Notes under the pieces: generated by a model
Databases searched by the model: none
Seen by the model: only the letters and a program-made list of their open reading frames with translations
Told to the model about the DNA's origin: nothing
Made by a program: the position numbers and the translations under genes
Origin: a virus
Length of the DNA: 42,723 nucleotides
IMG/VR virus record: IMGVR_UViG_3300010150_000040
Coordinates: 1 to 42,723 of that record
Reading direction: 5' to 3' (one strand)
Shown: positions 37,838 through 41,818 of the stretch, one piece after another
Position numbering within the stretch: the first letter of the stretch is position 1
How the letters are laid out: every line of letters starts with the position of its first letter

Positions 37838-38929
37838 ATGGCTCACTCAATAGATGAACTATTAAGCTCCGGAAAGCTCTCGGAAGAGGTTAGATCTTCA
37901 ATTTCAGAGGCTTGGGAAACTAAGCAATCTGAACTACGTGAAGAAGTTGCTTCAGAACTACGTGAAGAGTTTGCAGAACGTTATGAAAATGACAAATCGC
38001 AAATCGTAGAAGCAATGGATACAATGATTGGCGAAGTTATTGCAAAAGAACTTGAAGAGTTCCAAGCAGACAAAGCTAAGTTAGCTGAGGATCGTGTTGC
38101 ATATCGCAAACATATGACGGAACATTCAAATGTTCTTGATGATTTTGTGATGGAAACACTTCGCAAAGAAATTAATGAACTTCGCGAAGACCGTGAGGCA
38201 CAAGACAAGAACATGGCACAGTTAGAAGGCTTTGTTCTAGAACAACTCACAAAAGAGCTAAACGAGTTTCATGAAGACAAACGCTCACTAGTTGAAGCAA
38301 AAGTCAAAATGATAAAAGAAGGCAAAGAAGTCATCGAACAAACTAAACGCAAGTTTATTGAAACTGCGGCAAATAAAGTGGAAAACATTCTCGAGTCGAC
38401 AATTAAGACTGAGTTAACATCGCTTAAAGAGGATATACAAGTTGCAAAAGAAAATTCTTTTGGACGTAAGATATTTGAAACGTTTGCTGGAGAGTTCATG
38501 GGCAGCTACCTAAATGAAGGTACCGAAGTTGCTAAAATGAACAAAGAAGTAGACGAGTTAAAAGCAAAACTTGATGAAACAAACAAGGCCGTTGCAGAAA
38601 AAGAAGTTCAGCTTGCAGAATCAGCACGTACAGAACGTATGGCTGTGGATAAAGCAGAGCGTAAGCTAATCATGAATGAGATGATGGCACCGCTTTCAAA
38701 ACAACACAAATCAGTAATGAATGCATTGCTGGAATCTACCAAGACGGCAGATTTACAAAACGCATTCAACAAGTATCTTCCTTCAGTACTGAATGAAGCT
38801 ACAAAAACTAAAACTAAGAAGGTATTAAGTGAATCTTCAAAAGAGATCACTGGTGGTAAGGCAACAGTAGCAGAAGCTAATGTTGATGCTAACATTGTCA
38901 ACCTTCGAAAATTAGCCGGTATACAATAA
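37838..38929 (+). CDS. 22: Prohead scaffolding core protein gp22 (363 aa)
   Basis: gp22 is the main internal scaffold on which gp23 assembles and is later degraded by gp21. The sequence is almost entirely charged helix and coiled coil (about 1-270), with Glu/Lys-rich heptads and the conserved FAGEFMGSYLNEGTE segment near 215-235. LNE, LSE and similar triplets are candidate gp21 sites. Length is somewhat more than T4 gp22 (269). AGGAGAG precedes the ATG. It lies between gp21 and gp23 as in T4. Confidence 0.9.
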   Translation: MAHSIDELLSSGKLSEEVRSSISEAWETKQSELREEVASELREEFAERYENDKSQIVEAMDTMIGEVIAKELEEFQADKAKLAEDRVAYRKHMTEHSNVLDDFVMETLRKEINELREDREAQDKNMAQLEGFVLEQLTKELNEFHEDKRSLVEAKVKMIKEGKEVIEQTKRKFIETAANKVENILESTIKTELTSLKEDIQVAKENSFGRKIFETFAGEFMGSYLNEGTEVAKMNKEVDELKAKLDETNKAVAEKEVQLAESARTERMAVDKAERKLIMNEMMAPLSKQHKSVMNALLESTKTADLQNAFNKYLPSVLNEATKTKTKKVLSESSKEITGGKATVAEANVDANIVNLRKLAGIQ

Positions 38930-38945: not shown

Positions 38946-40106
38946 ATGGCAGACAACCTAATGGAAAATTGGAGCGTAACTAAAGAAGCTCTAACAGATG
39001 GTCTATCTGGAACGAAGAAACAAGTAATGGAATCAGTACTTGAAAACACTAAAACCTATTTGTCAGAAGCAGCAGGTGCAGGTGCAACTCAAGCAGGCAA
39101 CATTGCTACACTAAACAAAGTAATCCTTCCAGTGATCAGACGTGTTATGCCAACTGTTATTGCCAACGAAATCGTTGGTGTACAGCCTATGACAGGCCCA
39201 GTTGGACAAATTCATACTCTACGTGTGAGATATGCTGAAACATTTGATTCAGCAACAGCAGGCGATGAAGCACTAAGCCCATTCGCAATTGCTACAGGTT
39301 ACTCAGGTAACGCAACAACTAACCGTGCAGATGCTACATCTACAATGGAAGGTCTAGCGGGTAAGAAAATGAGTATCCAAGTCCTAAAACAAACAGTTGA
39401 AGCTAAAACACGTAAGCTATCAGCACGTTGGACATTCGAAGCGGCACAAGATGCCAACTCAATGCATGGACTAGACGTTGAAGCAGAAATTATGCAAGCA
39501 CTTGCACAAGAAATTACTGCTGAAATTGACCAAGAGATCATTGCGTCTCTAACATCACTAGCAGGCACAGCGGCTGACACATACGACCAAAGTGGCGTAA
39601 GTGGTACAGCAACTTTTGTTGGTGACGAACACGCAGCTCTTGCAGTTCTAATCAACAAAAATGCAAACACAATTGCAGCACGTACAAGACGTGGCGCAGG
39701 TAACTGGGCAGTTGTTTCTCCAACAGTACTAACAGTACTACAGAGTGCAACTACATCAGCATTTGCTCGCACTACAGAAGGTCCGTTTGAAGCACCAACA
39801 AACACAAAGTTCGTAGGTACACTAAACGGAACAATGCGTGTATATGTAAACCAGTATGCAGCTAACGATGACGTACTAGTAGGTTATAAAGGGTCAACAG
39901 AGACAGACGCAGCAGCGTTCTATTGCCCATATATCCCACTAATGTCAAGTGGCACAGTACTAGATCCAAGTAGCTTTGAGCCAGTTGTATCATTCATGAC
40001 ACGTTATGGTTATGTTGAACTAAGCAACCAAGCTTCATCTCTTGGTAACGCAGCAGACTACCTAGCGAAGATTGCTGTAACATCTAATCAACTAGCATTT
40101 GCTTAA
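38946..40106 (+). CDS. 23: Major capsid protein gp23 (386 aa)
   Basis: gp23 builds the capsid shell with an HK97 fold. The N-terminal propeptide is helical, and YLSE at residues 38-41 followed by AAGAGATQAG is a good gp21 cleavage site (LxE), so the mature protein probably starts at Ala42. The conserved blocks LPVIRRVMPTVIANEIVGVQ, PMTGPVGQIHTLRVRY, LSARWTFEAAQD and the C-terminal VSFMTRYGYVELSN confirm the family. It is clearly shorter than T4 gp23 (521) and typical cyanophage gp23, with the difference in the middle of the chain. AAGGAG precedes the ATG. A strong terminator follows. Confidence 0.95.
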   Translation: MADNLMENWSVTKEALTDGLSGTKKQVMESVLENTKTYLSEAAGAGATQAGNIATLNKVILPVIRRVMPTVIANEIVGVQPMTGPVGQIHTLRVRYAETFDSATAGDEALSPFAIATGYSGNATTNRADATSTMEGLAGKKMSIQVLKQTVEAKTRKLSARWTFEAAQDANSMHGLDVEAEIMQALAQEITAEIDQEIIASLTSLAGTAADTYDQSGVSGTATFVGDEHAALAVLINKNANTIAARTRRGAGNWAVVSPTVLTVLQSATTSAFARTTEGPFEAPTNTKFVGTLNGTMRVYVNQYAANDDVLVGYKGSTETDAAAFYCPYIPLMSSGTVLDPSSFEPVVSFMTRYGYVELSNQASSLGNAADYLAKIAVTSNQLAFA

Positions 40107-40125: not shown

Positions 40126-40155
40126 TAAAATAGGCGCCACGGCGCCTATTTTTTT
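40126..40155 (+). terminator. Intrinsic terminator after gp23
   Basis: A 9-bp GC-rich stem AATAGGCGC/GCGCCTATT (40129-40137 with 40142-40150), with a CACG tetraloop, runs into a T tract. It ends the capsid operon just before the separate promoter at 40177. Confidence 0.9.
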
Positions 40156-40176: not shown

Positions 40177-40205
40177 TTGACTTTGGTATCAGAATGTACT
40201 ATATT
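40177..40205 (+). promoter_or_regulatory. Sigma70-type promoter of the post-gp23 ncRNA
   Basis: TTGACT (40177-40182) and TATATT (40200-40205) are spaced exactly 17 bases. They lie just after the gp23 terminator and lead into a region with no ORF, so the expected product is an RNA that starts near 40212. Confidence 0.75.
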
Positions 40206-40211
40206 AAGTAT

Positions 40212-40506
40212 ATAAGTTAGACGACGGTGTAACTTAGATAGTTCAAGTAATAGCAGTCTGTAGAGGTTGTAACTTGATTTGCAGTTGTAGTGACAGCGCA
40301 TGAGCATGGAGACATGAAGATGCGTATTTTGGAAGTAACTATCCGATGCAAGGTATCCTGAAATTGAGCGTGGCTCTACTAGGGATTGTTGGTATTCACA
40401 GAGTCCAACCTATCATTTTTATTTGCCAACAGGCGAAAGTATCTGTGGTGTGCTATGCCTCCCAGTTACTATAGAAGGTCTACTGTTAATTCAGTAGGCC
40501 TTTTTT
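40212..40506 (+). ncRNA. Candidate independent structured non-coding RNA (about 295 nt) between gp23 and the tail fibre
   Basis: The region has its own sigma70-type promoter, no plausible ORF, and a strong terminator. Structure starts at the predicted 5' end with a perfect TAAGTTA/TAACTTA hairpin (40213-40219 with 40230-40236). Next come a TCAAGT/ACTTGA helix (near 40243 and 40271), a two-step hairpin GCGCAT/ATGCGT (40296-40301 with 40320-40325) around CATG/CATG with a GAGA tetraloop, a GAGC/GCTC hairpin, GTTGG/CCAAC, and TTGCC/GGCGA with a U-G pair. AGTAACT (40334-40340) can close with AGTTACT (40464-40470). G-U pairs favour the plus strand. I recognise no known RNA family (not tRNA, tmRNA, 6S, RNase P or group I intron). 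A trans-acting regulator or stable RNA is inferred; function unknown. Confidence 0.7.
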
Positions 40507-40508
40507 CT
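40475..40508 (+). terminator. Intrinsic terminator of the post-gp23 ncRNA
   Basis: An 11-bp stem (40475-40485 with 40492-40502) with one U-G pair and a six-base loop is followed by a T tract (40501-40506). It separates the ncRNA from the late promoter of the tail-fibre gene. Confidence 0.88.
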
Positions 40509-40520
40509 TTTATCTTTCGC

Positions 40521-40528
40521 TATAAATA
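40521..40528 (+). promoter_or_regulatory. T4-type late promoter of the tail-fibre gene
   Basis: An exact TATAAATA lies 21 bases before the ATG at 40550, directly after the ncRNA terminator, with a GGAGAG ribosome-binding site between. Confidence 0.75.
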
Positions 40529-40549: not shown

Positions 40550-41818
40550 ATGAGTACCAAATTTAAACAAAACCTAAATGTTGCTGGAAACATTTATTTG
40601 TCTGGTAACGTAGTGGCAGATGGTAATGTAACATTAGGTGATGCAGATACCGATAGCATCACACTAAATGCTGACATAACAAGTAGCATTATACCAGATG
40701 CAACCGATACATATGATTTAGGTACTACTGCAAAAAAGTGGAGAAACTTAGACTTATCACAAGACGCAAATATTGGTGCTGATATCAACATTGCTGGTGC
40801 AATTAATTCAACTGCGGCAGGCACACCAACTATTACAAGTTCAACAGATATTAAGTTACAAGCAGGTACTGGTGCTGAAGATAGAGTTGAAATATCACAA
40901 GCACCACTTAAACTTGCAAATTTAACAACCACAGAACGTGATACAAAAACCAGTCAAAATGGTGACATGATCTATAACAGTACTACAAACCAATATGAAG
41001 TTTATGAAAATGGTACGTGGAGATCTTTAGGAACAGATCAAGATGTTGCAGACCAAGTGGCGGCTTTAGTAGACAGTGCACCTACTACATTAGATACACT
41101 AAACGAACTAGCGGCGGCATTGGGAGATGATCCTAACTTTGCCACAACTGTTACTAATAACATTGCAACTAAATGGACACAAGATAATACTAAGATTAGT
41201 AATTGGGACACATCTTATACTTATTCACAAATTGGGCATGTTCCACTTGCTGGCGGAACTATGACAGGATTGCTTACACTGAGTGGTAATCCAACGACGA
41301 ACTTGCAAGCCGCAACCAAACAGTATGTTGATACACAACTCGCAGGAGCAGGAGGCGGTGGTACTAGTATTGAAACTAGGCAAGTAATCAGTGGCAGTAC
41401 TACTTACACAGCTTTGGTAGCTGGAACGTACAAGATTTTAGCTATTGGTAATGGTGGCAGTTTAGGAGGTGGCTCCGGTGGTGTTGCATACAGTTCGGTT
41501 TCTCTAACAGCAGGGCAAACAATCACTGTTAGTAATTCTTCAGGAACTTTTACTGTTACCTCGAGTGTTTCTGGATTTACAACGATGGTGGCTAATGCTG
41601 GAACAAATGGAGCAGGTGGCAGTGGCGGTACATCTTCGGGCGGTAATATTTTGAATTTGACTGGTGCTACTGGTTTAGCTGGTTTAGATGCCCCAGATAC
41701 TTATGGAATAACACTTTGGCTAATCCAGAACATAGGTGTAGGTAATACAGGCAGAGGTACCAATGGTTCTAGTACAAGAGCCGGCAGCGTTTATATATTC
41801 GGTTCAATAGGGGAATAA
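40550..41818 (+). CDS. Tail-fibre-like / virion appendage protein (422 aa)
   Basis: The N-terminal approx. 130 residues are short beta repeats (LNVAGNIYLSGNVVADGNVT, then IIPDATDTYDLGTTAKKWRN) typical of phage fibre shafts. A QNGDMIYNSTTNQYEVYENG block follows, then a helical linker (LDTLNELAAALGDD) and a phage tail-repeat (PLAGGTMTGLLTLSG, ATKQYVDTQL) at about 240-270. The C-terminal 150 residues are Gly/Ser/Thr-rich, like a receptor-binding or collagen-like tip. No enzyme motif. It is preceded by an exact late promoter and followed after three bases by the subtilisin-like gene. Receptor binding is inferred. Confidence 0.75.
   Translation: MSTKFKQNLNVAGNIYLSGNVVADGNVTLGDADTDSITLNADITSSIIPDATDTYDLGTTAKKWRNLDLSQDANIGADINIAGAINSTAAGTPTITSSTDIKLQAGTGAEDRVEISQAPLKLANLTTTERDTKTSQNGDMIYNSTTNQYEVYENGTWRSLGTDQDVADQVAALVDSAPTTLDTLNELAAALGDDPNFATTVTNNIATKWTQDNTKISNWDTSYTYSQIGHVPLAGGTMTGLLTLSGNPTTNLQAATKQYVDTQLAGAGGGGTSIETRQVISGSTTYTALVAGTYKILAIGNGGSLGGGSGGVAYSSVSLTAGQTITVSNSSGTFTVTSSVSGFTTMVANAGTNGAGGSGGTSSGGNILNLTGATGLAGLDAPDTYGITLWLIQNIGVGNTGRGTNGSSTRAGSVYIFGSIGE

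Follow-up and report, generated by a model that had tools for sequence, protein, structure and literature searches.

A divergent manA-family RNA with its own predicted promoter and terminator between the capsid and fibre genes of a marine T4-like phage

Introduction

The manA RNA (Rfam RF01745) was described as a cis-regulatory RNA and riboswitch candidate (Weinberg et al. 2010, PMC2864571), a view which is kept in its Rfam label 'Cis-reg' and was repeated in PMC9964418. Both papers noted the family in cyanophages, and neither the family nor its presence in these phages is therefore new. Our literature search, with most subscription journals and all bioRxiv preprints outside its scope, retrieved no function for the manA RNA, which has carried the label of a candidate riboswitch since 2010, and no proposal that it forms an autonomous gene.

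Here we report on a manA-like RNA in a viral DNA stretch of 42,723 nt (IMG/VR virus record IMGVR_UViG_3300010150_000040, positions 1 to 42,723), which is referred to as the window in the following. A preliminary description based on the letters of the window had proposed that a non-coding RNA gene, independent and highly structured, lies between the genes for the capsid and the tail fibre, at a place where no RNA was known in T4-like phages. The comparison with related phages adds three aspects to the known picture. Beyond the cyanophages, manA is widespread among marine T4-like phages and mostly occupies the gp23 site; a manA subtype of its own scores below the Rfam cut-off; and sequence-based evidence suggests that manA is mostly an autonomous RNA gene. 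While the finding as stated is thus partly known, the reinterpretation as an autonomous gene would surprise specialists.

Results and Discussion

Organisation of the window locus

The locus consists of gp23, a terminator, a promoter, the structured RNA, a second terminator, a late promoter and a fibre-like gene, in this order:

38946 to 40106, plus strand: gp23 major capsid gene, upstream neighbour (PHROG 138 major head protein, E 3e-103)
about 40128 to 40151, plus strand: intrinsic terminator of gp23, 10-bp stem followed by T7 (hairpin of -14.7 kcal/mol and T run)
40177 to 40205, plus strand: sigma70-type promoter TTGACT-17-TATATT with an expected +1 at about 40212 (10 of 12 matches)
40212 to 40415, plus strand: conserved core of the manA-family RNA from P1 to the closing stem P2 (RF01745 match, R1 match, covariation)
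40416 to 40473, plus strand: spacer before the terminator, with a homologue only in the near-identical record L243 (same phage)
40474 to 40508, plus strand: intrinsic terminator of the RNA, 12-bp stem (40474 to 40503) and U tract
40521 to 40528, plus strand: T4-type late promoter TATAAATA of the fibre gene (exact match)
40550 to 41818, plus strand: tail-fibre-like gene, downstream neighbour (PHROG 1197 tail protein, E 1.6e-20; several tail fibre families)

All four signals which the preliminary description had named, namely the gp23 terminator to the left of the RNA, the host-type promoter, the terminator with its U tract and the separate late promoter of the next gene, were recovered. The conserved core, roughly 200 nt, is narrower than the region originally delimited. 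A single promoter match of this kind does not exceed chance expectation, seven sites being present between positions 38000 and 42000 compared to 9.0 in shuffled sequences, and the case for the promoter thus rests on the comparison with homologues (see below). With a promoter and a terminator of its own the window RNA has the layout expected of a trans-acting small RNA.

Among isolated phages, the window gp23 has its best capsid matches in jumbo phages that infect Pseudomonas (kin of PA5oct, 70%), Vibrio and enterobacteria. The manA RNA was absent from all four jumbo-phage genomes checked. ARAGORN detected no tRNA in the window, hence none close to the RNA, and the region gave no Rfam match to tRNA or tmRNA.

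Identification as a divergent manA RNA

At the gathering threshold the Rfam scan of the whole window gave no match. The permissive scan of the region, however, placed the manA RNA RF01745 at 40214 to 40419 with 39.1 bits (E 1e-8), covering the full length of the model (positions 1 to 192 of 192). Because this score is below the gathering score of 55.2 bits, the match is a weak claim by itself. Applied to 28 other records, the RF01745 model detected manA in 16, and in five the match passed the gathering score, with a maximum of 61.9 bits. Same-site homologues that pass this score reach 56.4 to 61.9 bits, the copy of the pelagiphage Mosig reaches 64, and many related gp23 contigs carry the same RNA behind gp23.

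In the opposite direction, the model R1, built only from 33 RNAs of the window type, found manA in Mosig (62 bits), in the cyanophages S-CREM1 and ACG-2014f (41 bits, E about 1e-13) and in three other cyanophages; in a search of 347 kb every match was a member of the family. The window RNA itself scores 190 bits, its sequence being included in the model. Based on these reciprocal matches, we assign the window RNA to the manA family as a divergent member, within a separate subtype below the Rfam cut-off. The proposal of an independent, structured RNA gene that has both a host-type promoter and a terminator of its own is supported; the accompanying statement that no RNA is known at this place in T4-like phages does not hold, since manA was known and the cyanophage S-SSM5 carries it 68 nt downstream of gp23, in the same position as in the window.

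The family is common, one DNA pattern matching at least 120 stretches of viral contigs, and is both marine and T4-like according to its gp23 neighbour, its IMG/VR relatives and the isolated cyano- and pelagiphages. Its detection depended on the query. A cmscan over 12 whole relatives together missed homologues that were later found by sequence reading and genome search, and the DNA similarity search of isolated phages with the window sequence returned chance matches only, whereas the sequence of a relative retrieved Mosig. Pattern matches in bacterial contigs, including Photobacterium, were mostly due to chance; only three fitted R1 well, and all three resemble phage DNA binned with bacteria. 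In a contig labelled as a Marinifilum MAG (L333, JAOARS010000164.1), 17 tRNAs were observed within 8 kb and a manA-like RNA 14 nt before a tRNA-Trp; this contig is probably phage DNA binned with a bacterium.

Fold and covariation

The predicted RNA from 40212 to 40508 folds with -95.4 kcal/mol (z = -4.2), and none of 200 dinucleotide shuffles was as good. The following elements of the core were assigned:

40213 to 40236, plus strand: P1 hairpin with a GACG loop element, 7 bp (40213 to 40219 with 40230 to 40236), 5' end of the RNA
40237 to 40414, plus strand: closing stem P2 (40237 to 40241 with 40410 to 40414), 100% of cells paired in alignment A2
40305 to 40316, plus strand: CAUG-GAGA-CAUG hairpin, helix 8, all four pairs covarying and 100% of cells paired
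40388 to 40409, plus strand: P10 hairpin GUUGG...CCAAC, helix 11, 100% of cells paired, two-sided changes in two of five pairs

The hairpin predicted at the transcription start indeed adjoins the expected +1, and the predicted stem with the GAGA tetraloop was found as well. In alignment A2, comprising 33 relatives, 50 pairs are supported, 37 of them by two-sided changes, so that the covariation analysis suggested at the outset had a positive result. The proportion of paired cells was 96.3%, compared to 79.7% when the letters of the 3' strands were shuffled and 35-40% when the partners were slid; the wider alignment A1 (48 sequences) is concordant with this structure. A loop-loop pairing between P5 and P7 (40288 to 40291 with 40338 to 40341) is kept in 95.5% of the cells and is regarded as tentative, as two-sided changes occur in one pair only.

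The spacer from 40416 to 40473 has no homologue outside L243, and its pairing with the core does not exceed chance. When all 297 nt are folded, the structure of lowest energy suggests a long helix that joins the 3' extension to the core; this helix is not supported, since it was matched by 17 of 300 shuffled extensions and by 13 of 300 other pieces of the window.

This additional 3' stretch of 58 nt, the position of the window RNA in the lowest-scoring range of manA (39.1 bits) and deviations at two positions where 47 of 48 sequences have G might point to a decaying, non-functional copy. All stems are nevertheless intact in spite of the deviations, as are the promoter and the terminator. Moreover, the record L301, which derives from a different phage, shares both deviations in a core 99% identical to that of the window, while its promoter sequence, terminator and flanking genes all differ. 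This indicates that the conserved unit is the RNA itself and that the variant is kept rather than decaying, which makes a degenerate copy very improbable.

Coding potential

Short hypothetical ORFs are annotated over manA RNAs in the public genomes of P-SSM4 (PSSM4_169.1), S-SSM5 (SSSM5_127), P-HM2 (PHM2_011/012) and S-SSM7 (SSSM7_180), which could speak for a short protein-coding gene that coincides with the secondary structure. PSSM4_169.1 and SSSM5_127 are both assigned to the protein cluster T4-GC 428, which is probably only the RNA. Among the relatives, however, no reading frame is kept, the RNA lengths occupy all three residues modulo 3, and the substitutions track the base pairs. Only 16 of 33 relatives have the ATG of a 42-aa frame at position 40346, and in these early stops occur. 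No conserved small ORF was thus found among the relatives, in line with the ORF-less transcription unit of the preliminary description, and a coding function seems hardly conceivable.

Genetic setting in other phages

For the analysis of the genetic setting 134 phage manA instances with full flanks were gathered. A sigma70-type promoter with at least 10 of 12 matches lies just upstream of the RNA in 119 of them (8 of 134 with shuffled flanks), and 75-78 have an intrinsic terminator in the 110-130 nt behind the RNA (5 in shuffled sequences), usually about 14 nt past the closing stem. The late-promoter-like motif NATAAATA occurs within 220 nt downstream in 95 instances compared to 13 after shuffling. 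While gp23 is located within 1.5 kb upstream in 79 of the 134 instances, the RNA is present in only 19 of 59 gp23 relatives with sufficient flanks, which characterises it as an accessory element.

Six cyanophage copies (P-SSM2, P-SSM4, P-SSM7, P-HM2, S-SSM5 and S-SSM7) were inspected, and in each a promoter directly precedes the RNA (TTGACA or TTGTCA, 16-17 nt, TATAAT). In S-SSM5 (L440) the preceding gene has a terminator (GAGGGTGCTTGACACCCTCTTTTTTT) whose loop and 3' arm contain the -35 box of manA, so that both signals overlap; a similar arrangement of terminator and -35 box was observed just upstream of manA in P-SSM2 (L437).

Other copies reside in tRNA arrays. In S-CREM1 and ACG-2014f a tRNA borders manA on either side at a distance of no more than 1 nt, in S-SSM7 it abuts a tRNA-Gly (0-1 nt), and in L230, L234, L282 and L293 it directly follows a tRNA and lacks a promoter.

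The genes downstream of the RNA do not form a coherent set: 88 downstream proteins fell into 13 unrelated clusters, including gp32, Hsp20, rubrerythrin, redoxin, DNA ligase, a CHAP-domain protein and fibres. In L082, L095 and L096 the gene after the RNA encodes a fusion protein of a cytidylyltransferase and the C-terminal domain of a mannose-6-phosphate isomerase, the type of neighbour behind the name manA.

Stand-alone RNA gene or cis-acting leader

According to the published classification as a cis-regulatory RNA and riboswitch candidate (PMC2864571), the window RNA could be a riboswitch or attenuator that senses something and gates read-through of the terminator at 40474 to 40503 into the fibre gene. 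The terminator between RNA and gene would suit such a role. Furthermore, a terminator was not detected in 56-59 of the 134 instances, and in Mosig the rubrerythrin ORF begins about 23 nt past the manA RNA, so that read-through or leader roles are possible in such relatives. In the window, however, the fibre gene has a late promoter of its own, which does not place the RNA as its 5' UTR. In addition, the next genes are unrelated among the phages, and no message follows the copies in tRNA arrays. Pairing of the terminator arms is no stronger with the RNA to which they belong than with the RNAs of other instances (p 0.39-0.80), and the 3' extension of the window pairs with the core at chance level only. 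A first test for a terminator switch had given a signal (3/200), which disappeared within subtypes and with unique terminators. Taking these points together, a cis-acting leader appears unlikely for the window RNA.

The frequency of own promoters and terminators, far above that in shuffled sequences, argues for manA as a stand-alone gene, as do the copies in tRNA arrays, the 13 unrelated clusters of next genes, the different flanks of L301 and the lack of matching between terminators and RNAs. The homology of the family, its covarying structure, the conserved promoter, the frequent terminator, the variable neighbours and the tRNA-array copies are directly evident from the compared sequences. 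We therefore consider it probable that the manA of the window, like that of most sampled marine phages, constitutes a stand-alone gene whose RNA is expressed early and acts in trans, presumably on a host protein.

In the mechanism we propose, the host RNA polymerase with its housekeeping sigma factor would initiate at about 40212, with the P1 hairpin forming the start of the RNA. The transcript would adopt the multi-stem manA fold and stop at its own terminator, while the fibre gene would be transcribed separately from the T4 late promoter. The RNA would probably accumulate early in infection as a stable RNA and act in trans; copies in tRNA arrays would be released by tRNA processing instead of a terminator. 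The preliminary description had suggested host or phage messages, the host polymerase or a ribonuclease as regulated targets, and the RNA may regulate host messages, polymerase or a ribonuclease. Our guess is that the RNA most likely serves as a decoy or inhibitor by binding a host protein, such as a factor of RNA decay, translation or defence.

Extended to the whole family, it is conceivable, albeit more speculative, that manA is a mobile stand-alone phage RNA rather than a riboswitch, which is expressed early or processed from tRNA arrays and disarms or redirects a host protein. The copy between gp23 and the fibre gene would then be one cassette that is passed between marine T4-like phages with replacement of its promoter and terminator.

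If most copies are autonomous or part of tRNA arrays, searches for a ligand would be misdirected. Since the isolated phages Mosig, P-SSM2, P-SSM4 and P-HM2 carry manA, the question can be tested directly.

Other RNA elements in the relatives

A short element, GGGTNG...TAATAA...CG followed by a hairpin of at least 6 bp with the loop YAYGGTYA, recurs in the relatives, often near manA-like RNAs or tRNAs. It was observed at L227:10350 (plus strand) as well as in L117, L119, L133, L143, L144, L157, L188, L230, L232, L240, L259, L263 and L293, with 15 distinct copies compared to 2 in 5.1 Mb of shuffled sequence. At E 0.5 no Rfam match was reported for it in L143 or L230, and it may represent a phage RNA element that has not been described. 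Immediately downstream of the manA-like RNA, L094, L175, L227, L240 and L273 share a conserved segment, about 100 nt long (ACACACCAGAGTAGATGCACCTGCTTTCCTGTGCATAGGAC...) and with complementary ends, which had no Rfam match in L094. Phage tmRNAs were detected at L216:1589-1892 (Pelagibacter phage Mosig), L230:6652-7022 and L094:12888-13275; they match the alphaproteobacterial and the permuted tmRNA models alike.

Comparison with known RNAs

GOLLD and ROOL are structured non-coding phage RNAs which have been reported near tRNAs and are much larger than manA; the Rfam scans detected neither of them in the window. The wcaG RNA (RF01761) is likewise a cis-regulatory candidate of marine T4-like phages and is located near tRNAs beside manA in S-CREM1. 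Its structure is different, however, and the window contains no wcaG match.

The RNAs of phage tRNA arrays (tRNAs, tmRNA and abiF RNA) have manA copies among them, some without a promoter. In contrast to these, the window copy has its own promoter, no tRNA nearby and no similarity to tRNA or tmRNA.

The closest described system is the manA RNA RF01745, with which the window RNA shares the full-length model match, the order of stems, the 5' GACG hairpin, the occurrence in marine T4-like phages and, as the S-SSM5 copy illustrates, the place after gp23. It differs in its score below the gathering cut-off, its distinct subtype, its own terminator and the late promoter of the next gene. If the interpretation as a stand-alone gene is correct, manA would be added to the few highly structured phage RNAs that act in trans.
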